From positions 1-22,890 of IMG/VR virus record IMGVR_UViG_3300004461_000130: 22,890 nt of DNA. The stretch is one strand, 5' to 3'. Shown piece by piece: positions 13,042 through 22,890 of this stretch. Source of the stretch: a virus. The position numbers and the translations under genes were made by a program. Position 1 is the first letter of the stretch. Each line of letters opens with the position of its first letter. The notes under the pieces are model-generated. The model ran no database searches, was not told where the DNA came from, and saw only the letters and a list, made by a program, of their open reading frames with translations.

Positions 13042-16000
13042 ATGGATGAAATTTTTTATGTAACACCAAATGGTTCTAAAGTTAGTGAATCAGAATTACT
13101 AGAGGAGTATGGTGATGAATTGTTTGACCAACTTGTAAATGAGGGGCAACTTAAAGAATTTGTTGAAGAAGAAACTCCTGAAATAAATTTTAATGGTGGA
13201 AGTTTTTACGAGACTCCTTCAGGTGAGGTATTCTCTGAAGGTGATTTAATTAATGAATTTGGTGTTGATGTGTTTAATCAAGTACTAGACGAAGGACAAT
13301 TAAAAAAAAAAGATTCTCCGGGTTCAATATCAAGTTTTTCAAGTGGCACATCAGGTGTTACAACTTCACCGTCTCCCGGTTCAAATAAAGGATTACTTAA
13401 AGAAGAAAACTTTTTTAAAGGTAATTTCGGAGCTTTTTTAAATGCAATTGACTTTGGAACAGATGCAGGTCTTGGAGATTTAATTGACGATATGGGTCGT
13501 GCAGCTCAAGCCGGTTTTGAAAATGGTCAAATTGCAGAGAGTGGTAACGATTTACTTTTGGGTGGAACTAATGCATCATTAGAAGACATTCAAGAGTTTA
13601 TTTCTAAAAACGAAAACGCTTTAAGATTAGGTCCTTCTCAAGAAATGCAAAATTATCAAAAAATTTATAATGAAGAAAAAGCAGACGGGAATAGTGTATG
13701 GGGATTTGTAAAAGGAATTGTGCTTAACCCCGGTATAATTCCTGAAATTATGGTAAGTTCATTTGCAGGTATGGCAGGGAACAAAGGCTCAGCAGCAGCA
13801 GCAGCAGCGACAATTGGAACAGGTGCAACATTAGGTGCAACCACAGGTTCGGTAGGTGGTCCTGTGGGTGGAGCAGCAGGTGCACTTGCAGGAGCAGCAG
13901 CTAGTATACCATATGCTTTTGCAGCAGGTAGTACGGTATTAGAAACAGGATTAACTTATGGAGAGTTATTACAAGCAAGGCTTGAAGAAAAGGGGGAAGA
14001 GTTAACTGCAAAAAATGTTCAAAATTTACTACAAAACGAAGAGGTTGTTAAAGAATTAAGGTTTGATGCAGTTGCAAGAGGATTAGCAATCGGTACAATA
14101 GATGCGTTAACAGGTAGATTAGGTGGTAAAATTGCAAAACCTTTTTTAACAAAAGCAGGGAGTGTAGGGTCTAAGGCTGCAGCTAAAGCTTTAAAAAGAA
14201 AAGCGATTGGTTCAGCAGCATTAGTAGAGTCGGTAGGGGGTTCAATAGGTGAAACCGCAGGTATTACAGCAACTAATTTATATGGAGACCAAGGGCAAGA
14301 GTATGACACAGGCGAAATATTATTAGAAGGTATTGCAGAAGCTCCGGGATCTGTAAAAGATTTAATAGCAGTAAGGTATCAAAACCCAAAATACAAAGTT
14401 AATGGCAAGAAAGCTACAGTAGAAGAAATAGATGCACTTATTGATGGAATGACCTATGAGCAATTAACTGCTCCAAATTTAAAAATTGAAATAGACAATG
14501 ATTTTGAAGGAAGAAAAGAAAAGCTTCATAATAAAATATTAGAAGGAAGAACTAAACAGTCAGTAATGGCAGCTAATCCTGATCTTAATGGCCCAACTGT
14601 AGATGCAATTGTAACTTTAGAAAGACAAGTACAAGAATTAGAGGGGAGAGTTTTAGGAACTGTTACGGGTAAAAACAAAATTGCAGATTTAAAATCTCAA
14701 ATAAAGAATCTTCAAGAAAATCAATTAGAAGCAGAAGCTGTTGAGGAGACAGAAGCTGTTATTGAAGAAACAGAAAGATATAAAGATTCACAAATACCAA
14801 CGGGTAAGGAAATATATACATTAGAAACTGAAGAAGGAGAAGGGGTTAGAACTGTAGAAGTAACCACTAACAAGGATGGAAGCAGAAAAATAGTTCAAAA
14901 GTTAGATGGAACAGTAGCAGGTAGCGAAACTCTTTCAAAAGACAACACTCTTGAGACTAAAGGATATGTAGAAAGTGCTTATGATAATATAGTTGGTGAA
15001 TCTGAAGTATTAGCAATGGAAGATGTTATGAATCCTAAAATGAAGGAAAAATTAACTACCAAGCAAAAACAAGAATTAGGAATTTCGGAACAAGAAAAAC
15101 CTAAAACAGTCAAAGACTCACAGATACCTACAGGTAAAGAGGTGTTTACTATTGAAACTGAAGAAGGAGAAGGAGTTAAAACTGTAGAGGTTACTACCAA
15201 TAAAGATGGAAGCAGAAGTGTAGTTCAAAAAGTAGATGGAGATAATGCAGGTAGTCAAAACATACCTTCTAGTAACAGCGTAAATAATGAAGATTTTGTA
15301 AAAGGTTCTTTTGGAAATATAGTTGGAGATGTAGAAGTAATTGGAATGGAAGATGTTATGAATCCTAAGATAAAGGAAAGATTAACTACAGAACAAAAAA
15401 AGGAGTTGGGTATGGTTGAAGAAACCGAGGATGCATCTCCTAAAATATACGAAAGCATTAATGATAACTTAGAAGTCTTTGGAGAGTTCACTACTCCTGT
15501 TAATTCTTTAAATGACTTTGATAACTTGCCAAATGAAGTTAATAAAGTAATTAATTTAGGACAAAAATTAGATTCTGAAAATATTACTTGGGAAATAAAC
15601 AGAGATTTAGGTGTAGTAGATGGAAGACAAATTTTAGAAATAAAAACTAATAATGGCGATAAGTTTTTAATGTATAATTCTACGGGTCGAGGAACAGGTG
15701 CTGACTCTAAAGGACAATGGGTTCCTATGTTGGGATTTGCTAAAAACGGTGGATTTATTAAGGGTGCTTTTAATCCTGAAACAGGCAAGACATTTACACC
15801 AACAAAACCATTGAGTAATGCTAACAACCCTAAATTTAATAAGTACGGAAGTGAAACATTTAAAAATATAGCTGAACAATTAGCTAAAGGTGAAACAAGT
15901 TCTGTTGAAGTGGTTTCAGAAGTTGAAGTTGAAATACAACCAATCGAAAACATTAGTGGTTTTGAAAGGGTGATGGACAAAATTAAAAACATAGTTAAAA

Positions 16001-19000
16001 AGAAAAAGTCAAGAAACACAAAAGAAAGTACTAATCCAAAAGAAATTGAAAAAGCTGCAATAGACTATTTGCAAAAAACAAAAGTATACGAAAACTCTAG
16101 TGACATTCAGAGAGAAGCTATGGTTAGAAAGGTTAGGGAGTCAATAGGTATAAAAGAAAAGAAAGCTCCAACCCCTAAAGCTGCAATTAAAAAAGCAGAG
16201 AAAAGTTTAGGACTAGATGTTAAAGAACCATCTAAAATTACTTTAACTGAAAAACAAGCAATTGCCTCACAAATAAAATCTTTAAATAGAGGAGCAAAGG
16301 ATGCTATAAAATCATTTGTTAATGCAAGCAAAATATTAGCAGAAGAAGTTTCTCAGATGGTTGAAAAAGGAAAAATAACTACTAAACAAGCTGCTGCTAT
16401 TATAAAAAGATTTACTAAAGTTAATATGTTAAATGATGCTTCTGTTGATAGTTTTGTTGACTATATGAGCAGAGTTTTTGAAAACGCAAACTTTGCAGAA
16501 GAAGTTTCAATTGCTAGAAAAAAAAGACCAACTGCATTAAAAAATATTAGAACAAAAATCGGTATTGCAAAATCGGTTTCTCCTAACTTAAATAAAATTT
16601 TTTCTATAAAAAATCCTGCCTCAATTCCTCAGTCAGTATTCCAAGATTACTTGAATCTAATTAATGTATTTGGAGAAAGATCATCTGTTTTGTCTCCTTC
16701 AGACATTGCTGAAGTTGAAAAAACAACTAAAAAAATATTAGACGCAATTGATTTAGAGATTTCAGAAATCCCTAGATTAAGTGATGTATTTAATTTATAC
16801 GAAAACAAAATTTTAAATGATAAAGGTGATGTTGATTATGCAGCCACTTTGAAACAAATGTTAAAAGATGGAGAGGTTGATGCTGATGAAGTTGAGATAA
16901 TGAAAAAATATAAATCAGAAATATCACCATCTAAACCTGTAAAAGAAAAAACAAAAGCTGAATTAGAATTAGAAAAACAAAGTGTAATAGAGCAAATTAA
17001 TGAAACAAAAGCTTTACAAATCTCATCTTTACCTTCTAGGCTAGAAAGAGCTGCTGCTGATAAATTTAACTCATTAATCAATGATATAGATGCGTTAAAT
17101 GGGTTAAGCACTCAGGAATTAAAACAAGTTTTAAAGTTAATTAATAATATTAACAACGGATTTCTACCTTCTTTAGTTGTTACTATGAACTCAAAAATGG
17201 AAGCAGTTCTTCAAGGGGCGATTTTGGGAAAATCAATTGAGAAGGGTAAAATACTTCCTATATCTAAATTATATTCTAGATTAAAAAGTAAAATAACTAA
17301 AAGAGGAGCTGTACTAGAAGCTATTAGAAGAAACCCTCTTTATTATGTAGATCAGATTTTTGGTGATTCAAAAACAAAAAATATTTTTAATTCTGTATTT
17401 AATAGTTCTGCTAAAGCACAAGAAGCATTTACTTATGAGTACAAAAAGATATTAGGAAAACTTGAGAAAGCTGAACAAAAAGTTTCTAAATCTTTTAAAA
17501 GCAATTCAAATAAAACTTTAAGGTCTAGTTTTAAGCAAATGGTTTATATGATTCAGCTTGAACACGATTCAAATTTAAATAATCCTGAAACTAAAAATCA
17601 AGCGGCTGCTTATATTAAAAAAACAATTGAATCAATTGACACGGGAGAAACTAGTTATACCGATGATGACGCAATAATGTTAGCAGAAATTTTAGAAAAA
17701 TTTAAAAATAAAGAAACGGGAGAAATTGATAATGAAAAACTTTATAATAGTTTTAATAAAGCGGAAAAAGAATCTATTGAAACCATTCAAGAAGTTAATT
17801 TAAGTTTAGCTGAAACAGCAGAATACACTTCTTCAATTATAAGAGGAGATAATGTTACTCTTAGAAACAACTATGTTCATTTAAATGTATTAAGTGAAGC
17901 TCAAAAAGGTGCAAACATAGAAAACTCATTAGGAGTAGCGAGTGGACAATCTTATATTGAGCAATTTAATAAAGGATTAAAACCATCTACAAAAGCTAAG
18001 TCTTTAATAAAAAGAACAGGATCTGTTTCTCCTTTAAACTTTAATGTATATGCTTCCGCATCAAGAGGATCAAAAGGAGTACTTCTAGATTTTCATATGA
18101 CAGAGCCAATTAAAACTGCAAGAAGAACAATAAATGAAGCTGAAAAATTTTTAAAAGGAGATAAAGCAAGAATGGACTCTGACTTAAGAGAAAAGTTTAA
18201 CGCTATTAAGCAGGCTAATGAAGAAGTGGTTGAGAACTTATTAACTAATGCTTATCAACAAACAACTTTAGGGGAAGACGCTTTAATTTGGTTACAGAAA
18301 AATGGCTATCGTGCTATACTCGCAAGTGGAACAAGGTTTGTTGCAGAATTAACTTCCAATACTTTTTTTGCTATAATGACAGCTCCTATTTCTTTTGTTA
18401 CAGGAGCTAAAATAGGAATGAAATTTTTAAATAGTGACTCAGCTCCTTTATCTATGAAAAATCTTGGAAGTAAACTTGTCACTCGTTTGTATTCTAATCA
18501 AGATATGTCAGGGAGAATGATTGATGCAAATATTATAAATCAATCTTCTAATCCAAAAACATCTAAGTCTAAGGGAAAAATATCAAATAAAATAGCTCAA
18601 ATATGGAATAGGACAGGAGCTAAATATCAAGGTGCTGTAGCTACGGTTGCAGATGGGTTAATATCTACTCCTGACAAGGTGGTAATGAGGCCGATGTGGT
18701 TTGGTACTTTTAAATCAGAATTTAAAGCTATTACAGGTGTAGATCCTGATATGGAAAAAATAGCGGCTAATGATGAAGTTTATATGAAGGAAAATAAAGA
18801 AGCATTAAAAACTGCAACAGAATTAGCTGATCAAAATGCAGTAATGACAGGTGGTAATTCTAATCCTTTTATGGGGATATTAAAAGGTACTAAAAAAGCA
18901 AATGATAGTGGTATTAAAACTGCTATAAACGCATTTAATGGCTTTATGACTACCTTTCTTATATATGAATACATTACTGCTCGAACAGGAATTGTTAATG

Positions 19001-19938
19001 CAGTAGGTATGGGAAGCCTAACTAAAACAAAAGGAGCAGCCTTGATGGCCGGTTCAGCTACTCGTATGATTATGTATACTATGATGGCTAATATTCTTGG
19101 TGAAATGTTAGCGTCAATAGCAGGAGAAGAAGAAGAGCCTAAAGATTTGGAAAAACAACTAGGTCAAGCAATTGCTTCTTCTGTAACAAGCTTGGTTTTA
19201 GGAAGAGACTTTGGTAACATTACTAAAGGGATAATGAATGCAGGCATAATAGAGCCTTTAAACAGAGAATATGGTGGGCCTCTTAGGGATGGGGAATATG
19301 ATGTTTACAAAGATGGATTATCTTATCAAATAATACCTAACAATAAAGATGGTAGAGGAACAAGTATAGGTGAAATAGCAACTAATATGGCTGCAGCTTT
19401 TGGCCCTGCAATTAAAACTTTAGACTTTGCAGTTAAAAAAGCTACTTCAGCTCCTAAAAAAACTCCGCAAGGAAAGGCTTTAGAGGAAGCAGAACTTATG
19501 TATAGACTTCCACTTGAGATTTTAGGAAACACAGGCTTAATTCCAATGTACCGAGATGTAAGGAGATTAGTTTTAAGAGATATTTATTCTGAAATGAATA
19601 AAGCTTCTAACGATTTAAAGGATAAAAAGAAAAGAGAAAAAGAAAAGCTTGGTATTTATAATTCAAGAAGTGATATGAAAAGGTACAACTACCGTTTATG
19701 GTATGATACTTTTGGTCCAAACTCTCCTGACTATGAGTCAGAACAACAGTTAAAAGAAGAGAAAAGAAGAGAATATGAACTAAAAAAAAGGCTTAAAGAT
19801 AGAGAAAATAATTATTACGGTGGGTCATCAGGATTTGGTAGCGGTGATTCTTTTGGTGGCGGTGGTTCTTTTGGTAAGGGAAGAAAAACTAAAAAAGCAG
19901 GGAAAGACACTTTTGGTTCATCAAAATTTGGAAACTAA
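13042..19938 (+). CDS. Giant internal virion / ejection protein
   Basis: A 2298-aa protein. Visible in order: two copies of a 34-residue motif with a 50-residue period (5-38 and 55-88); a Gly/Ala-rich glycine-zipper-like hydrophobic stretch (about 239-300); two 110-residue tandem repeats (581-690, 691-800); a compact unrecognised domain (about 802-955, with FLMYNSTGRGTG, WVPMLGF and NKYGSETFKNIA); long helical regions; hydrophobic segments near 1758-1800, 1962-1983 and 1999-2028; and a Gly/Ser/Phe-rich tail (about 2258-2298). The part with PDKVVMRPMWFG, NDEVYM and FLIYEY near 1878-1980 matches large marine-phage proteins I remember. Size, hydrophobic patches and gene order fit the largest ejected core protein (as T7 gp16 or crAss-like cargo). 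No lytic transglycosylase or RNA polymerase motif was found. Confidence 0.65.
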   Translation: MDEIFYVTPNGSKVSESELLEEYGDELFDQLVNEGQLKEFVEEETPEINFNGGSFYETPSGEVFSEGDLINEFGVDVFNQVLDEGQLKKKDSPGSISSFSSGTSGVTTSPSPGSNKGLLKEENFFKGNFGAFLNAIDFGTDAGLGDLIDDMGRAAQAGFENGQIAESGNDLLLGGTNASLEDIQEFISKNENALRLGPSQEMQNYQKIYNEEKADGNSVWGFVKGIVLNPGIIPEIMVSSFAGMAGNKGSAAAAAATIGTGATLGATTGSVGGPVGGAAGALAGAAASIPYAFAAGSTVLETGLTYGELLQARLEEKGEELTAKNVQNLLQNEEVVKELRFDAVARGLAIGTIDALTGRLGGKIAKPFLTKAGSVGSKAAAKALKRKAIGSAALVESVGGSIGETAGITATNLYGDQGQEYDTGEILLEGIAEAPGSVKDLIAVRYQNPKYKVNGKKATVEEIDALIDGMTYEQLTAPNLKIEIDNDFEGRKEKLHNKILEGRTKQSVMAANPDLNGPTVDAIVTLERQVQELEGRVLGTVTGKNKIADLKSQIKNLQENQLEAEAVEETEAVIEETERYKDSQIPTGKEIYTLETEEGEGVRTVEVTTNKDGSRKIVQKLDGTVAGSETLSKDNTLETKGYVESAYDNIVGESEVLAMEDVMNPKMKEKLTTKQKQELGISEQEKPKTVKDSQIPTGKEVFTIETEEGEGVKTVEVTTNKDGSRSVVQKVDGDNAGSQNIPSSNSVNNEDFVKGSFGNIVGDVEVIGMEDVMNPKIKERLTTEQKKELGMVEETEDASPKIYESINDNLEVFGEFTTPVNSLNDFDNLPNEVNKVINLGQKLDSENITWEINRDLGVVDGRQILEIKTNNGDKFLMYNSTGRGTGADSKGQWVPMLGFAKNGGFIKGAFNPETGKTFTPTKPLSNANNPKFNKYGSETFKNIAEQLAKGETSSVEVVSEVEVEIQPIENISGFERVMDKIKNIVKKKKSRNTKESTNPKEIEKAAIDYLQKTKVYENSSDIQREAMVRKVRESIGIKEKKAPTPKAAIKKAEKSLGLDVKEPSKITLTEKQAIASQIKSLNRGAKDAIKSFVNASKILAEEVSQMVEKGKITTKQAAAIIKRFTKVNMLNDASVDSFVDYMSRVFENANFAEEVSIARKKRPTALKNIRTKIGIAKSVSPNLNKIFSIKNPASIPQSVFQDYLNLINVFGERSSVLSPSDIAEVEKTTKKILDAIDLEISEIPRLSDVFNLYENKILNDKGDVDYAATLKQMLKDGEVDADEVEIMKKYKSEISPSKPVKEKTKAELELEKQSVIEQINETKALQISSLPSRLERAAADKFNSLINDIDALNGLSTQELKQVLKLINNINNGFLPSLVVTMNSKMEAVLQGAILGKSIEKGKILPISKLYSRLKSKITKRGAVLEAIRRNPLYYVDQIFGDSKTKNIFNSVFNSSAKAQEAFTYEYKKILGKLEKAEQKVSKSFKSNSNKTLRSSFKQMVYMIQLEHDSNLNNPETKNQAAAYIKKTIESIDTGETSYTDDDAIMLAEILEKFKNKETGEIDNEKLYNSFNKAEKESIETIQEVNLSLAETAEYTSSIIRGDNVTLRNNYVHLNVLSEAQKGANIENSLGVASGQSYIEQFNKGLKPSTKAKSLIKRTGSVSPLNFNVYASASRGSKGVLLDFHMTEPIKTARRTINEAEKFLKGDKARMDSDLREKFNAIKQANEEVVENLLTNAYQQTTLGEDALIWLQKNGYRAILASGTRFVAELTSNTFFAIMTAPISFVTGAKIGMKFLNSDSAPLSMKNLGSKLVTRLYSNQDMSGRMIDANIINQSSNPKTSKSKGKISNKIAQIWNRTGAKYQGAVATVADGLISTPDKVVMRPMWFGTFKSEFKAITGVDPDMEKIAANDEVYMKENKEALKTATELADQNAVMTGGNSNPFMGILKGTKKANDSGIKTAINAFNGFMTTFLIYEYITARTGIVNAVGMGSLTKTKGAALMAGSATRMIMYTMMANILGEMLASIAGEEEEPKDLEKQLGQAIASSVTSLVLGRDFGNITKGIMNAGIIEPLNREYGGPLRDGEYDVYKDGLSYQIIPNNKDGRGTSIGEIATNMAAAFGPAIKTLDFAVKKATSAPKKTPQGKALEEAELMYRLPLEILGNTGLIPMYRDVRRLVLRDIYSEMNKASNDLKDKKKREKEKLGIYNSRSDMKRYNYRLWYDTFGPNSPDYESEQQLKEEKRREYELKKRLKDRENNYYGGSSGFGSGDSFGGGGSFGKGRKTKKAGKDTFGSSKFGN
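13054..13305 (+). repeat. N-terminal duplicated 34-residue motif in the giant protein
   Basis: Residues 5-38 (13054-13155) and 55-88 (13204-13305) align without gaps with 17 of 34 identical positions. The shared pattern is FYxTPxG, SE, L, EYG/EFG, F, Q, EGQLK. The period is exactly 50 residues. Confidence 0.85.
14782..15441 (+). repeat. Two 110-residue tandem repeats in the giant protein
   Basis: Residues 581-690 (14782-15111) and 691-800 (15112-15441) each begin KDSQIPTGKE and contain ETEEGEGV, VEVTTNKDGSR, MEDVMNPK and ELG. They align ungapped with 66 of 110 identical residues by eye; bases are also nearly identical in the first half. Confidence 0.95.
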
Positions 19939-19949
19939 AATATTTATAT

Positions 19950-20090
19950 ATGCCTTTTAAAAGTGAAAAACAAAAAAGATGGATGTATGCTAATAAGCCT
20001 GAAATAGCTGAAGATTGGAGTAAGTCTTATAAGAAAGGATACATACCTGAAAGCTTAAGTCCTAACAAGTCAAGGAAAAAGAGCAACTAA
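19950..20090 (+). CDS. Small conserved phage protein (MPFKS family)
   Basis: A 46-aa basic protein starting MPFKSEKQKRWMYANKPEIA. This pattern (MPFKS, Q-R/K, a W/F-M-Y/F-A core, then K/H-PEIA) is a very widespread small protein in phages, of unknown function. It begins 11 bases after the giant gene and is the last gene on the plus strand. Its final 21 bases overlap the end of the convergent minus-strand nuclease gene, so both ends are coding on both strands. The start is the only in-frame ATG and is preceded by A/T-rich sequence. Confidence 0.85.
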   Translation: MPFKSEKQKRWMYANKPEIAEDWSKSYKKGYIPESLSPNKSRKKSN

Positions 20091-20486
20091 ATCTATTCCT
20101 TCTTTTATATTTATATAACTAATATCTTTTTCAATGTGGTATTTTTTAGAAAAGTCTGTTTGTTTTGGTAAGTTTTTTTTAATCCAAGTCATTCTAATTT
20201 CAGCAATGTAAAATGCCCATATTCCTTTAGGTGTAGAATTTATATATACAGGTATGGTTTTCAAATCTAAAGACCTATTCATTAAAGATTTGTATTTAGA
20301 TTTTTCTATAATTAAATCGTCATAATGAGTTCGTCTGCATTTTAATTCAATGTCTAAATTAAATTTAGTAGAATAACAGTCATAAGAAGCATTTGTTTTT
20401 TTTGTTCTTTGTAAATCAGGAATAAAGTTCTTTTTTAAAAGAGAAAATAAGTCTTTTTCTAAAAATATTTTTCCATCATATATCAT
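20070..20486 (-). CDS. PD-(D/E)XK-type nuclease, conserved phage family
   Basis: A 138-aa protein. Asp36 followed by the strand and motif Glu47-Leu-Lys49 (in DIELKCRRTHYDDLIIEKSKY) gives the D...ExK arrangement of the restriction-endonuclease-like fold, and the tail of that segment (C-R-R-T-H-Y, D-L, EK.KY) is a pattern I recall from small nucleases of Bacteroidota phages. It would cut DNA by metal-dependent hydrolysis; the substrate is unknown. It is the last gene of the minus-strand operon and overlaps the preceding gene by 11 bases. The stop (TGA at 20072-20070) lies inside the convergent 46-aa gene. Confidence 0.65.
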   Translation of the reverse strand: MIYDGKIFLEKDLFSLLKKNFIPDLQRTKKTNASYDCYSTKFNLDIELKCRRTHYDDLIIEKSKYKSLMNRSLDLKTIPVYINSTPKGIWAFYIAEIRMTWIKKNLPKQTDFSKKYHIEKDISYINIKEGIDLVALFP

Positions 20487-20670
20487 CTTCTACAGAAGTT
20501 GAAATGTCTTTTAGAATTGACATTAAATTTTTTATTTCTTTTTTTAGTGAATTAAATTCACGATCAATAAGTAATTCATATATTTCGGAAGTAGAGTCGT
20601 TTATTGTGTCCATCAAGTGATTGATGTGTGCTATGCGTTCTTTATCATAAGCAGACGGATCTAATGGCAT
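20476..20670 (-). CDS. Small helical protein of unknown function
   Basis: A 64-aa protein when started at 20670 (MPLDPSAYDKERIAHINHLM). A longer frame begins at 20730 but would overlap the upstream gene by 59 bases; starting at 20670 leaves the arrangement TAA-T-ATG with the gene before it, the same one-base junction as at 2966-2972, so I prefer it. After residue 8 the protein is predicted by eye to be one or two long charged helices ending in an acidic EDD. I do not recognise a family. Translationally coupled with both neighbours. Confidence 0.6.
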   Translation of the reverse strand: MPLDPSAYDKERIAHINHLMDTINDSTSEIYELLIDREFNSLKKEIKNLMSILKDISTSVEDDI

Positions 20671-20671
20671 A

Positions 20672-20920
20672 TTAGGTTTTATTTTTATTAGAGTCCATTG
20701 TTTGTAAAAACAAAGTTCCTGTGGACTCATCTATACTTTTAATTCCTAAATAGATTTTTCTTGAAGAAACTCTCACTTCTCCTTTGTCACTTTTAGAAGA
20801 ATCACTTCCTAAGTTACAGTACATTGAGCAGTCCATTCTAAGAAGTTCGTCAACTTTCTTTTTAGTGTTCCAAGTTTTATAAGAGAGAACTTTGTCAATA
20901 TCACTTGTCGTAAACACCAT
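20672..20920 (-). CDS. Conserved phage protein of unknown function
   Basis: An 82-aa protein with an N-terminal helical part (DIDKVLSYKTWNTKKKVDEL), a short Cys-containing segment (MDCSMYCNLG, two cysteines near 31-35), a basic stretch (VRVSSRKIY) and a helical end. The pattern is familiar to me from small proteins of marine Bacteroidota phages but no function is known to me. Its start overlaps the DnaA-domain gene by 20 bases, and its stop is one base before the next start, so it is part of the same operon. Confidence 0.6.
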   Translation of the reverse strand: MVFTTSDIDKVLSYKTWNTKKKVDELLRMDCSMYCNLGSDSSKSDKGEVRVSSRKIYLGIKSIDESTGTLFLQTMDSNKNKT

Positions 20921-21452
20921 TGTAAAACCTATTTAATTTATATAACAACTGTTGTTCTGTTCCTTTTCTTGTCCTATTTTCTACACATTTGAACAAATCT
21001 TGTAGCTTTTCTTTGTTTTTAGTCAAGCTAGAAATAACAGAATTTAATCTTTTTATTTCCGAAGATAAGTTTTTATTTTCAATTTTCAAAGAAATTATGT
21101 CTGTTTTTAGTTCATTTTCTGATAACAAAGATACAGGGTCAGTTTCATTATAGTACTCTTTTTTTATTCTGTCGTAGTTTTTCTTGAGGTGAATGTCACT
21201 TTTTAAATACCAAGGAATTGTTTTGAAGTAGTGTAAAACTGTTGCGTGGTTCATTCCCATTGATTTAGCTATAACACTACATCCATATCCTTTTTCCTTA
21301 AGAATATATGCGTATATCATTTTGGCATTTACAACTTGTTGAACTCTAGATTTATCTTCTAAAACATCTACACCTAGTAAGTCTCTAATTATTGTTTTCA
21401 AATAACTGAACTCCTCGTGTTTTCTCATTAGGATATTTATTTCTTCTTTCAT
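20901..21452 (-). CDS. DnaA C-terminal-domain-like DNA-binding protein with coiled coil
   Basis: A 183-aa protein. Residues about 36-100 match the C-terminal DNA-binding domain of bacterial DnaA: a helix with NAKMIYAYILKEKGYG, then a helix-turn-helix (SVIAKSMGMNHATVLHYFKT) whose N-H-A-T-V-L-H (68-74) corresponds to the DnaA signature around H-S/T-T-V. The AAA+ ATPase of DnaA is absent. Residues about 108-160 form a heptad-like Leu/Ile/Lys/Glu coiled coil, and the last 25 are basic. Likely roles are an origin-binding factor, a transcription regulator or a competitor for host DnaA boxes; none is shown. The start at 21452 overlaps the previous gene by 68 bases; Met9 (21428) would reduce this to 44. 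Confidence 0.75.
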   Translation of the reverse strand: MKEEINILMRKHEEFSYLKTIIRDLLGVDVLEDKSRVQQVVNAKMIYAYILKEKGYGCSVIAKSMGMNHATVLHYFKTIPWYLKSDIHLKKNYDRIKKEYYNETDPVSLLSENELKTDIISLKIENKNLSSEIKRLNSVISSLTKNKEKLQDLFKCVENRTRKGTEQQLLYKLNRFYNGVYDK

Positions 21453-21774
21453 TATAATAGTATTTGATTGATTTTTGACTTGATATAAAATCTAAATATT
21501 CATCAACTTCTATTTCGTTGATGTCTATTAATATTGGTATGCTTACTGTTTCTTTTAAATATTCAATTACAAAAAACACAGGACTTTCCTTGTGCACTAC
21601 CCCTGCAACTTCTTGTGACCACTCATCTTTTTCAGGAAGTTCATCTAAAATAGAAAGTATTTGACCTATAATAACTGTAGCATCAGGTATAGAAAATAAT
21701 TCTAATTGAGAAAAAAACCACTCATCAATTTCATAAGATAATTTATCCTCTATATACTTCAGTTCTAAATCCAT
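21385..21774 (-). CDS. Acidic protein of unknown function
   Basis: A 129-aa acidic protein that I do not recognise. It begins with a charged helical segment (LELKYIEDKLSYEIDEWFF), has a hydrophobic core segment (ATVIIGQILSILDELPEKDEW), beta-prone stretches (SPVFFVIEYLKETVSIPILI) and a basic end. The start overlaps the VRR-NUC gene by 32 bases; no other in-frame ATG exists nearby. Its end overlaps the DnaA-domain gene by 68 bases. It shares the operon with nuclease and DNA-binding genes, so a DNA-metabolism role is possible only by association. Confidence 0.55.
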   Translation of the reverse strand: MDLELKYIEDKLSYEIDEWFFSQLELFSIPDATVIIGQILSILDELPEKDEWSQEVAGVVHKESPVFFVIEYLKETVSIPILIDINEIEVDEYLDFISSQKSIKYYYNERRNKYPNEKTRGVQLFENNN

Positions 21775-21982
21775 ATTTATCTAATTCTTTTAACCTATAT
21801 TCCTGTAATTTAGATACCTTCCCTTTTGGTGTTTTTACTTCACTAAATAATACTTTAACATTTTTTGGTATTGCTAAAATATCAGGTATTCCATTCTTAT
21901 TGGTCTTAATTAATTTAAGAACATAATATCCTTCTTCTTCCAACTGCTTTATTCTTTTAGATTGTATCTGCTGCTCTGTCAT
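21743..21982 (-). CDS. VRR-NUC domain nuclease
   Basis: A 79-aa protein that is essentially one VRR-NUC domain, the minimal PD-(D/E)XK nuclease family common in phages. The motifs are clear: an N-terminal helix with Gln and Glu, G-Y-Y-V-L-K (18-23), G31-I-P33-D34, S-E48-V-K50, and a C-terminal Q60 before the G-F-R-T-E-V end. Asp34, Glu48, Lys50 and Gln60 are the expected active-site residues. Stand-alone VRR-NUC proteins of this size can act as structure-specific, often Holliday-junction-type, endonucleases after oligomerising. A TATCTTTG box lies six bases upstream of the start. It overlaps the next gene by 32 bases. Confidence 0.9.
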   Translation of the reverse strand: MTEQQIQSKRIKQLEEEGYYVLKLIKTNKNGIPDILAIPKNVKVLFSEVKTPKGKVSKLQEYRLKELDKYGFRTEVYRG

Positions 21983-21988
21983 TCATAA

Positions 21989-21996
21989 CAAAGATA
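21989..21996 (-). promoter_or_regulatory. Promoter-like -7 box (TATCTTTG) before the VRR-NUC gene
   Basis: On the minus strand TATCTTTG lies six bases before the ATG at 21982, in the 18-base gap after the upstream gene. It matches the other two boxes exactly (all continue with T). The -33 region is T-rich but has no clear TTTG, so the call is moderate. Confidence 0.45.
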
Positions 21997-22000
21997 CAAT

Positions 22001-22414
22001 TTAGTTATTTATGGTAAAAAAAGAATCTTGATCATCAAAATATAACATATATTCTGTATCATTATACGAACCCTCTCTTTCTTTAAGTCTTCCACTAATT
22101 TTTCCTGTAGATTCTAAGTCTTTTATATTTGCATATATTAATCCGTCATAACAGGCCCATATAATAATTGCAGGTACTTTTTTATCACAAAGTTTAACCA
22201 TTTTTCTAGCAGCCACCGGTAAAGGAAAAGCGTTTTTTATGTTTCTTTTTCTGCCTTTAACTTCAACGTAACATTTTTTTTCATCTTTAGTAACTAAATA
22301 ATCTATGTCCCATTCATCAAGTTCCTCATAACTAGCTACAAACTTTTCACAGAACAGACTAATCGCTTTGCGTTGTCTTTCCAAGTCTTCTTTTGTTTCA
22401 AATTTTTTACTCAT
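22001..22414 (-). CDS. PD-(D/E)XK nuclease-like protein
   Basis: A 137-aa protein. An N-terminal helix (ERQRKAISLFCEKF) is followed by Asp36/Asp38 in EWDIDYLV and by C-Y-V-E51-V-K53-G-R, the D...ExK core of the restriction-endonuclease-like fold. A later helix (AARKMVKLC) and strand (VPAIIIWACYDG, YANI) complete the usual alpha-beta order. The substrate is unknown; phage proteins of this type serve in recombination, repair or host-DNA breakdown. It begins 9 bases after the stop of the 53-aa membrane protein gene and is followed by a promoter-like box. Confidence 0.7.
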   Translation of the reverse strand: MSKKFETKEDLERQRKAISLFCEKFVASYEELDEWDIDYLVTKDEKKCYVEVKGRKRNIKNAFPLPVAARKMVKLCDKKVPAIIIWACYDGLIYANIKDLESTGKISGRLKEREGSYNDTEYMLYFDDQDSFFTINN

Positions 22415-22423
22415 AATATTTTT

Positions 22424-22585
22424 TTAAAATCTGTACGTAAGTCCTACTGCAACAAAAAAACCTCCTGTTGCTATGGCTAAAGTGTTTGGGTTTAAATCAA
22501 ATTGTGGTGCGTGTGGATGCCACATCATATATGTACTTCCTGCGGTCATTAAACTAAGACCTCCTATTATTGCTAGTTTTTTCAT
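22424..22585 (-). CDS. 53-aa predicted membrane protein
   Basis: A small protein with two hydrophobic segments: residues about 4-21 (LAIIGGLSLMTAGSTYMM) behind an MKK start, and about 35-51 (LAIATGGFFVAVGLTY), with a short His/Pro-rich loop (WHPHAPQFD) between. It probably spans the inner membrane twice as a hairpin. Holins can look like this, but no endolysin or other lysis gene is visible nearby, so I leave the function open. It lies between the HNH and nuclease genes with gaps of 19 and 9 bases, in the same minus-strand operon. The first segment could alternatively be a signal peptide. Confidence 0.6.
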   Translation of the reverse strand: MKKLAIIGGLSLMTAGSTYMMWHPHAPQFDLNPNTLAIATGGFFVAVGLTYRF

Positions 22586-22604
22586 ATTGTTTTGTTTTTA
22601 TAGT

Positions 22605-22889
22605 TTAATTTAAATTTTTCCATCCTTTTTGTAAGTTTTCAATAGCCCATAATGGCTGTAGGTTAGTATAATGACATAACTCGTATGTTTCTTTTTCTGT
22701 ATTAGCCAGAGCTAATGGTTTAATATGATCTATATGCCATTCTCCATAATTATCCCAACTCATTCCTTCTTTAAATTTATTACTAATATAATCTCTGACT
22801 TCATCGTAACCACATCCTAATATGTCTGTTGTTTTTCCTGTCTTATTAATAATAGTCTTTCTTATTCTACTTCTTAAATTTAGTTTTAT
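22605..22889 (-). CDS. HNH endonuclease, C-terminal part (truncated by window edge)
   Basis: The last 94 residues of a frame that runs out of the window. GEWHIDHIKPLALA, then CHYTNLQPLWAIENLQKGWKN, is the beta-beta-alpha metal HNH motif of free-standing phage endonucleases: the WHIDHIKP pair of histidines, and the NLQPLW-x-x-N-x-x-K-G end. The upstream part (ILGCGYDEVRDYISNKFKEG, M-x-W-D-N-Y-G) is the region usually found before it in this family. Such proteins are often mobile (homing-type) endonucleases that nick DNA, though some aid packaging; there is no sign here that it interrupts another gene. The N-terminus is unseen. Confidence 0.9.
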   Translation of the reverse strand: MKLNLRSRIRKTIINKTGKTTDILGCGYDEVRDYISNKFKEGMSWDNYGEWHIDHIKPLALANTEKETYELCHYTNLQPLWAIENLQKGWKNLN

Positions 22890-22890
22890 C

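Follow-up and report, generated by a model that had tools for sequence, protein, structure and literature searches.

Stand-alone VRR-Nuc proteins of phages (stNUC, saNUC and psNUC) are dimers that cut Holliday junctions, as described in the available part of PMC4103454, and a phage Hjc protein with the motif E-SD-EVK cleaves junctions according to the available part of PMC8805305. Here we analysed IMG/VR virus record IMGVR_UViG_3300004461_000130, a stretch of 22,890 bases that is called the window throughout, and focused on its convergent minus-strand end (20070-22890), where a gene of the first kind and a predicted one of the second stand together with a gene for a protein with a DnaA-type DNA-binding domain. 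The region is probably a phage-DNA replication and junction-processing set that ends the replication/recombination operon of a lytic-type phage, with DnaA-domain proteins acting on an element of the phage's own genome. The enzyme kinds are individually known; the arrangement is new. In a mostly cursory literature search we did not find a fixed linkage of an ATPase-less DnaA-domain protein with an acidic protein of RelE-like predicted fold and a junction nuclease that can be exchanged.

The 79-amino-acid (aa) VRR-NUC protein of the window is, like stNUC, saNUC and psNUC, a minimal single domain with a D/E-x-K site. Unlike them, as far as the available part of PMC4103454 describes them, its gene usually has those for a DnaA-domain protein and an acidic, RelE-like protein downstream, each of the two in 69 of 82 loci. 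The terminal 138-aa protein shares a predicted Hjc fold and the motif E10-D36-E47-x-K49 with archaeal Hjc and phage Hjc_15-6 (available part of PMC8805305), but a sequence search of solved structures gave no detectable match to any PDB chain, and the likeness lies in the fold and the E-D-E-x-K residues. With domain IV of DnaA from E. coli (1j1v) and Bacteroidota, the 183-aa protein of the window shares a helix-turn-helix (HTH) with H, T and a basic R, whereas a Pfam scan and its own profile gave no AAA+ domain match and it has an extra coiled coil and a conserved C-terminal motif, RT..G.E..KLN..YNG.

Two described phages come near to this locus. Podoviridae sp. ctfjg026 (MW202828) shares the VRR-NUC protein, the DnaA-domain protein (annotated as 'chromosomal replication initiation protein'), a 58-aa protein like the 64-aa protein of the window and a PDDEXK_14 protein, and also carries a second 'dnaA' and both copies of the element discussed below. 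In contrast to the window, no counterparts of the 129-, 82- and 138-aa proteins were found in it, and its PDDEXK_14 gene is placed after the gene for the 58-aa protein. Polaribacter phage P12002L (PMC4615864), a cultured flavobacterial phage, encodes a short DnaA-domain protein, annotated as 'chromosome replication initiation protein DnaA', in the neighbourhood of NinG and a replication protein, but its annotation shows no VRR cassette and no cluster of AATCRACAT boxes was found in it.

Operon context and a colinear gene cassette

A program-made list of open reading frames (ORFs) holds nine minus-strand ORFs in 20070-22890. From the promoter-proximal to the distal end these encode an HNH endonuclease (g9) and proteins of 53 (g8), 137 (g7), 79 (g6), 129 (g5), 183 (g4), 82 (g3), 84 or 64 (g2) and 138 aa (g1). 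Starting from the HNH side, the first three pairs of neighbouring genes are separated by 19, 9 and 18 bp, the next three overlap by 32, 68 and 20 bp, and the last two show a gap of 1 bp (computed with the 64-aa start of g2) and an overlap of 11 bp. The tight, overlapping minus-strand operon described in the original prediction is confirmed by these gaps of at most 19 bp and overlaps of 11-68 bp.

Longer relatives gave the context of these genes. Contig G001 is 97-100% identical across all nine proteins and reaches about 9.5 kb farther upstream. In G001 and G003 the cassette closes a replication/recombination operon at its 3' end. Upstream of the cassette this operon encodes, in order, a DnaA-domain protein of about 100 aa, a Sak annealase (1e-44), a DUF3799 PDDEXK exonuclease (3e-17), a protein of 92 aa that fits no clear family, an 809-aa BT4734-like/DUF5906 primase-helicase and a 492-aa ResIII/SNF2 helicase; the families were assigned on the G001 copies and those of G003 by homology. 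The original prediction had offered two readings, one of which, a replication-initiation and junction-processing set, agrees with an operon of annealase, exonuclease, primase-helicase and helicase that also holds two nucleases belonging to, or resembling, Holliday-junction resolvases.

We collected 80 loci listed via the DnaA-domain protein and 80 via the VRR protein (at least 80 for each) and scored them with our own hidden Markov models (HMMs), which were built from the same loci that they score. After removal of near-duplicates (a locus was retained if <10% of the sampled 31-mers were shared with those retained before it) 104 of the 160 remained, and 82 of these had a VRR gene and at least 3 kb downstream of it. 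The loci come from fragmentary records and include related, non-independent sequences, and the counts are uncorrected for kinship. The order VRR-NUC, g5, DnaA-domain protein, g3, g2, nuclease was found colinear in dozens of uncultured phages. Downstream of the VRR gene we detected g2 in 74 of the 82 loci, g5 and the DnaA-domain protein in 69 each, g3 in 42, the family of g7 (N7) in 25 and that of g1 (N1) in 17. All four core genes (g5, DnaA, g3, g2) were present in 36 loci and none in two; members were sometimes absent and never rearranged. Similarly, 70 of the 80 DnaA-centred loci had a same-strand VRR gene upstream, and three of the ten without it (L052, L070, L091) start at a contig edge. 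The gene set recurs far beyond chance, in the same order in many contigs.

The position after g2 is exchangeable. The next recognised gene within 300 bp after g2 (74 loci) was N1 in 16, a short metallophosphoesterase in 15, N7 in nine, HNH in 12 and a long phosphoesterase in 16 (MPEl, identified by a 'DNA repair exonuclease' PHROG and giving no Pfam match), with something else or nothing in six. A nuclease-type gene from one of five families thus directly follows g2 in 68 of the 74 loci. N1 and N7 were never found together downstream of VRR (0 of 82; hypergeometric 8.6e-4, uncorrected for kinship). Where both occur, as in the window, N7 sits upstream of VRR; elsewhere N7 was placed downstream of VRR after g2 in 25 of the 82 loci and upstream of VRR in five. 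As a separate observation, N1 was also seen near a DnaA-domain gene in loci that showed no VRR gene (L113, L115-L119, L127, L128), with an overlap of the genes in L119.

The nine genes had been put forward as one set. The core does travel as a fixed set, which does not include the HNH and 53-aa genes; these two are local to the window and its near-duplicates. Scattered, independent occurrence in related phages, named beforehand as the outcome that would speak against the idea, was not what we saw for the core, the order of which was constant in the 82 loci. Whether the 129-, 82- and 64-aa genes accompany the nucleases had been posed as a question, and in the related-phage loci they do.

In a single-sequence search of a phage collection, the DnaA-domain protein, the 137-aa protein and the small DnaA protein each matched MW202828 only; g1 matched two unannotated records and g5 gave no match. 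Therefore, the cassette is essentially confined to uncultured phages. When 84,980 genomes of bacteria and archaea were scanned, five cassette loci emerged, all in metagenome-assembled genomes, and these may be phage contigs binned with bacteria.

Nucleases and small proteins of the cassette

Four of the nine genes had been called nuclease-like from their motifs alone, and for g1, g6 and g7 the motif residues are present and conserved in homologues. The terminal gene g1 (20070..20486, minus strand), which occupies the nuclease slot, has no Pfam match. Its structure, the prediction of which had been proposed as a check, was modelled with AlphaFold2 from 25 sequences (pLDDT 88.6, pTM 0.82), and the model has a nuclease fold of the Hjc type. 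The 18 top Foldseek matches were all Hjc-type resolvases (best E 1.9e-5), as were the best 11 rows of the VIA comparison (Z 12.0, root-mean-square deviation (rmsd) 3.3, 104 residues aligned). The predicted D36/E47/K49 are real and, together with E10, invariant in the 25 sequences. In the model, helix 10-20 is followed by strands 37-39 and 44-50, with D36 one residue ahead of its strand, which is the Hjc layout of E in helix 1, D by a strand and E-x-K in the next strand. Based on this model, g1 is predicted to be an Hjc-fold Holliday-junction resolvase. Its 3' end overlaps, tail to tail, with a 46-aa ORF (MPFKSEKQKRWMYANKPE...; 19950-20090, plus strand) at the 3' end of the late operon, which has homologues in the same position in G001 and G003.

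The minimal VRR-NUC gene g6 (21743..21982, minus strand) was recognised by Pfam VRR_NUC (PF08774; 2e-9, 38 bits against a cut-off of 23.8), which bears out its earlier assignment, and it also gave a Pfam Hjc match (2.7e-4) and a PDB profile match to 4qbn (E 0.0032). The catalytic D34/E48/K50 are invariant in four sequences from as many lineages, and at least 455 relatives were found in viral contigs. Judged by its sequence, g6 is likely a Holliday-junction resolvase. For g7 (22001..22414, minus strand), a putative endonuclease, the D36-D38/E51/K53 motif that had been pointed out is invariant in three sequences, and Pfam PDDEXK_14 (PF24579) matched above its cut-off (1.4e-6, 29 bits against 25).

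The HNH gene g9 (22605..22889, minus strand) is cut by the window edge, leaving 94 aa; its full-length copy of 167 aa is in the near-identical G001 (L015:9374-9877). It has no Pfam match, and the HNH assignment is supported by PHROG matches (phrog_28061, 6.6e-11; endonuclease VII phrog_1035, 2.8e-9). Beyond the window and G001 copies only L095 carries an HNH homologue among the tabulated loci, and g9 is probably a free-standing mobile HNH gene added locally. The neighbouring g8 (22424..22585, minus strand) encodes a small membrane-like protein of 53 aa and is likewise a local addition. It reached no Pfam family above the cut-off, and its seven matches in the searched loci are all one unique sequence, that of the window and G001 copies.

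The 129-aa g5 (21385..21774, minus strand), which adjoins the VRR gene, has a predicted fold that may be RelE/ParE-like (AlphaFold2 pLDDT 83.8). The structural matches are individually weak, both in Foldseek (best E 0.03, HigB2) and in VIA (best Z 8.1, RelE1, rmsd 3.9, 74 aligned), and nearly all top VIA rows are RelE/ParE/HigB/YoeB proteins; a sequence search of solved structures gave chance-level matches only. M1, F20, G58, E71, D84, Y93, L94 and D95 are conserved in 45 sequences, and none of the conserved columns in these is K or R. The ribonuclease members of the RelE/ParE superfamily have conserved basic catalytic residues. We considered a RelE-type toxin; as g5 has no such conserved residues and a median isoelectric point (pI) of 4.1 (151 ORFs), it is not called a toxin. 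The median pI of the VRR proteins is 9.4, and acidic g5 might conceivably restrain or guide the basic VRR nuclease.

The gene just before the nuclease slot, g2 (20476..20670, minus strand), encodes a small acidic protein (phrog_32863, 4.4e-8; family median pI 4.5). Its likely form is the 64-aa version starting at 20670 rather than the 84-aa ORF from 20730, because the homologues begin at the inner Met. The 82-aa g3 (20672..20920, minus strand) has no Pfam or PHROG match.

The plus-strand structural genes of the window are similar to those of flavobacterial podophages: for the 1553-aa virion protein, identity is 45% with that of MW202828 and 31-35% with those of Cellulophaga and Flavobacterium phages among the matches listed. 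The 2298-aa late protein (13042-19938, plus strand) has an N-terminal stretch unlike that of the G001 copy, the rest being about 93% identical.

The DnaA-domain proteins

The DnaA-type domain noticed earlier in g4 (20901..21452, minus strand) was confirmed as an HTH by a profile of its own family, which matched E. coli DnaA domain IV (1j1v) at 7.1e-7; the Pfam Bac_DnaA_C match (3.2e-6), at 27.5 bits, falls short of the cut-off of 31.5. The HTH match covers residues 29-79, and the part after them matches only coiled-coil models. R36, H69 and T71 are invariant or nearly so in 39 sequences. We take these to be the equivalents of E. coli R399, H434 and T436, the H and T presumably being the base-contacting residues and the R the basic one of domain IV. 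The recognition helix NHATVLH is one residue off the DHATVLH of two Bacteroidota DnaA proteins, and across the family [ND]HATVLH is identical to these or differs by one residue.

Nearly complete relatives encode a second DnaA-domain protein of about 100 aa, 7-9 kb upstream of the larger one (PF08299, 6.5e-8, in G001). A Pfam scan of 25 cassette records gave two DnaA-domain proteins in 17 and one in eight. Two further observations concern the place of the larger gene: L067 has two DnaA-domain ORFs side by side within its cassette, which may reflect a duplication or the splitting of a gene, and in L144, L189, L192, L208 and L209 the place is taken by another short protein without clear family.

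The outline of g4 could also suggest packaging. Small terminases combine an HTH with a coiled coil in outline, g4 has a sub-threshold Terminase_5 match (E 0.08), and the cassette abuts the late genes in the window. A DnaA-domain coiled-coil protein would then be a small-terminase-like recognition protein, and the nucleases would debranch concatemers. However, the DnaA_C and PDB matches given above are far stronger, and in MW202828 the terminase large subunit and portal genes are in the late operon, far from the cassette. We regard a packaging set as very improbable.

The nearly exact match of the recognition helix to Bacteroidota host DnaA would also fit a takeover of the host, the other half of the original prediction, in which the DnaA-domain protein occupies or marks host DnaA boxes and blocks initiation or aims the nucleases at host DNA for nucleotide recycling. 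In line with this, DnaA boxes are scarce in the phage genomes (68 where 110 were expected; 120 loci, 1.17 Mb). This scarcity is, however, only at the 4th percentile of permuted motifs, and flavobacterial phages lacking the cassette (13 TTWTNCACA sites against 21.4 expected) were as short of this motif as cassette genomes (34 against 63.1). The attack on the host chromosome via DnaA boxes, as far as it was read from box depletion, was dropped on account of these control phages. Six contigs showed no clusters of DnaA boxes. In characterised relatives, nucleases of the resolvase type act specifically on junctions, as the available parts of PMC4103454 and PMC8805305 describe them, and the genes lie in a replication operon. 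Host takeover is in our view unlikely.

A four-box element and its possible roles

We favour replication and junction processing of the phage's own DNA. In many relatives a conserved noncoding element was found, outside the window, directly before the primase gene. It consists of AATCRACAT direct repeats in two pairs flanking TRATWAYCARTNANTTA and adjoins a stretch of 76-100% A+T. The central site often includes WATCAANNNNTTR, the consensus of integration host factor (IHF), and this was exact in 8 of 13 copies. Copies lie at L015:4910-5086, at L018:4001-4160 and 13205-13382, and at L010:12620-12810 and 23570-23718. Clustered direct repeats beside an A+T-rich stretch, as in iteron-type origins, are present, in degenerate form in G026, and the element is a candidate for a phage origin or an operator. 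A second copy was found in the divergent region beside groEL in four of nine genomes; in MW202828 and G011 it is at most about 1.3 kb from the minimum of cumulative GC skew, which is also the gene-strand switch. After the groEL-side element we also noted a transfer RNA-like sequence (GCACCTATAG...TTGGATA) in G003 (L018:4160-4200) and G011 (L233:8150-8190).

In six of the nine genomes the 140 bp before primase were the segment richest in boxes; MW202828 has two boxes there and G013 three, not the top count. In some of the genomes the primase start was placed a few codons from its true position. As four of the nine genomes had supplied the consensus in the first place, G013, G015, G026, G011 and G028 are the fair tests, and of these three were top, one near top and one had none. 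The central site occurred 11 times in 517 kb of the nine cassette genomes, always within the element, and was absent from 188 kb in five stretches from other flavobacterial phages; the pattern was drawn from the elements themselves, and the informative part is this absence elsewhere. Tandem boxes with 0-1 mismatch gave seven matches in the nine genomes against none reversed, a count that is not strong alone, since three of 20 permuted patterns gave 5, 1 and 2 such matches. A loose element pattern was rejected as mostly chance (of the 80 loci listed, 13 have primase close downstream).

When the element alone was searched for in 2.9 million viral contigs, 21 stretches were returned, nine before primase (eight directly observed, that in L303 deduced from its neighbours), nine beside groEL and three without placement (L367, L373, L380). 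The scan leads back to the same phages: among eleven newly met contigs, primase, VRR and a pair of DnaA-domain proteins are encoded by three, each >50 kb.

Several results weigh against action of DnaA-domain proteins at such an element. In G026 the element is degenerate, with no boxes before primase, and the central site is lacking there in G026 and G028. The other eight of the eleven contigs, fragments of 12-36 kb, show no primase, DnaA domain or VRR. AATCRACAT matches the DnaA box TTATCCACA at only six of nine positions, a weak likeness, and with up to three mismatches the tandem-box pattern was not enriched in 28 records (47 matches against 67 reversed). Eight of the 25 records yield a single Pfam DnaA_C match; this is the protein of about 100 aa, and the larger one was detected with our own HMM. 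The DnaA-domain protein is not indispensable to the set, because it is missing from 13 of the 82 cassette loci, and some loci without it carry a different protein there.

The element also stands at the starts of transcription units and could be only an operator. The DnaA-domain proteins would then be transcription regulators, the element an operator/promoter for the divergent groEL/early unit and for the primase unit, and the nucleases merely co-transcribed. Both element copies are at such starts, box 4 lies near the primase start codon, and a short HTH plus coiled coil is a common regulator layout. Against this stand the origin-like parts, namely four direct boxes around an IHF-type site and the A+T-rich stretch. 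The -7 motif of Bacteroidota, TAnnTTTG, was not found within 260 bp of the element in any of the nine genomes. Additionally, in elemoF and Panino, two phages with primases that match the cassette-phage primase over its N-terminal part, a gene annotated as a replication initiation protein stands beside primase; no such gene was recognised in the cassette phages. Regulation alone is a possible explanation that we consider doubtful.

In the replication and junction-processing reading, annealase-driven, recombination-dependent replication would make branched intermediates, which VRR-NUC and an Hjc-like or PDDEXK_14 nuclease would cut, making the DNA packageable. The DnaA-domain protein and its sister of about 100 aa would bind the phage's own DNA, most likely at the four-box element, and would serve there either as a regulator or, without an AAA+ domain, as an initiator or loader. 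They may bring the primase-helicase and the junction enzymes to the phage genome, and g5 might act on the VRR nuclease as suggested above.

We tentatively propose a further step. In a widespread, uncultured lineage of flavobacterial-type phages a pair of AAA+-less DnaA-domain proteins might start replication at two copies of a phage-specific four-box element with an IHF site, one copy lying beside groEL and the other ahead of primase, with one protein of the pair being encoded in a cassette with VRR-NUC, an acidic RelE-fold partner and a nuclease slot filled from five families. If true, this would be a new kind of phage initiator and origin, physically tied to junction processing. The nuclease slot offers a natural comparison of five enzymes seemingly able to do the same job. 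If the element is bound and drives replication, these phages would have made the DNA-reading domain of DnaA into an initiator that is independent of the DnaA ATPase.

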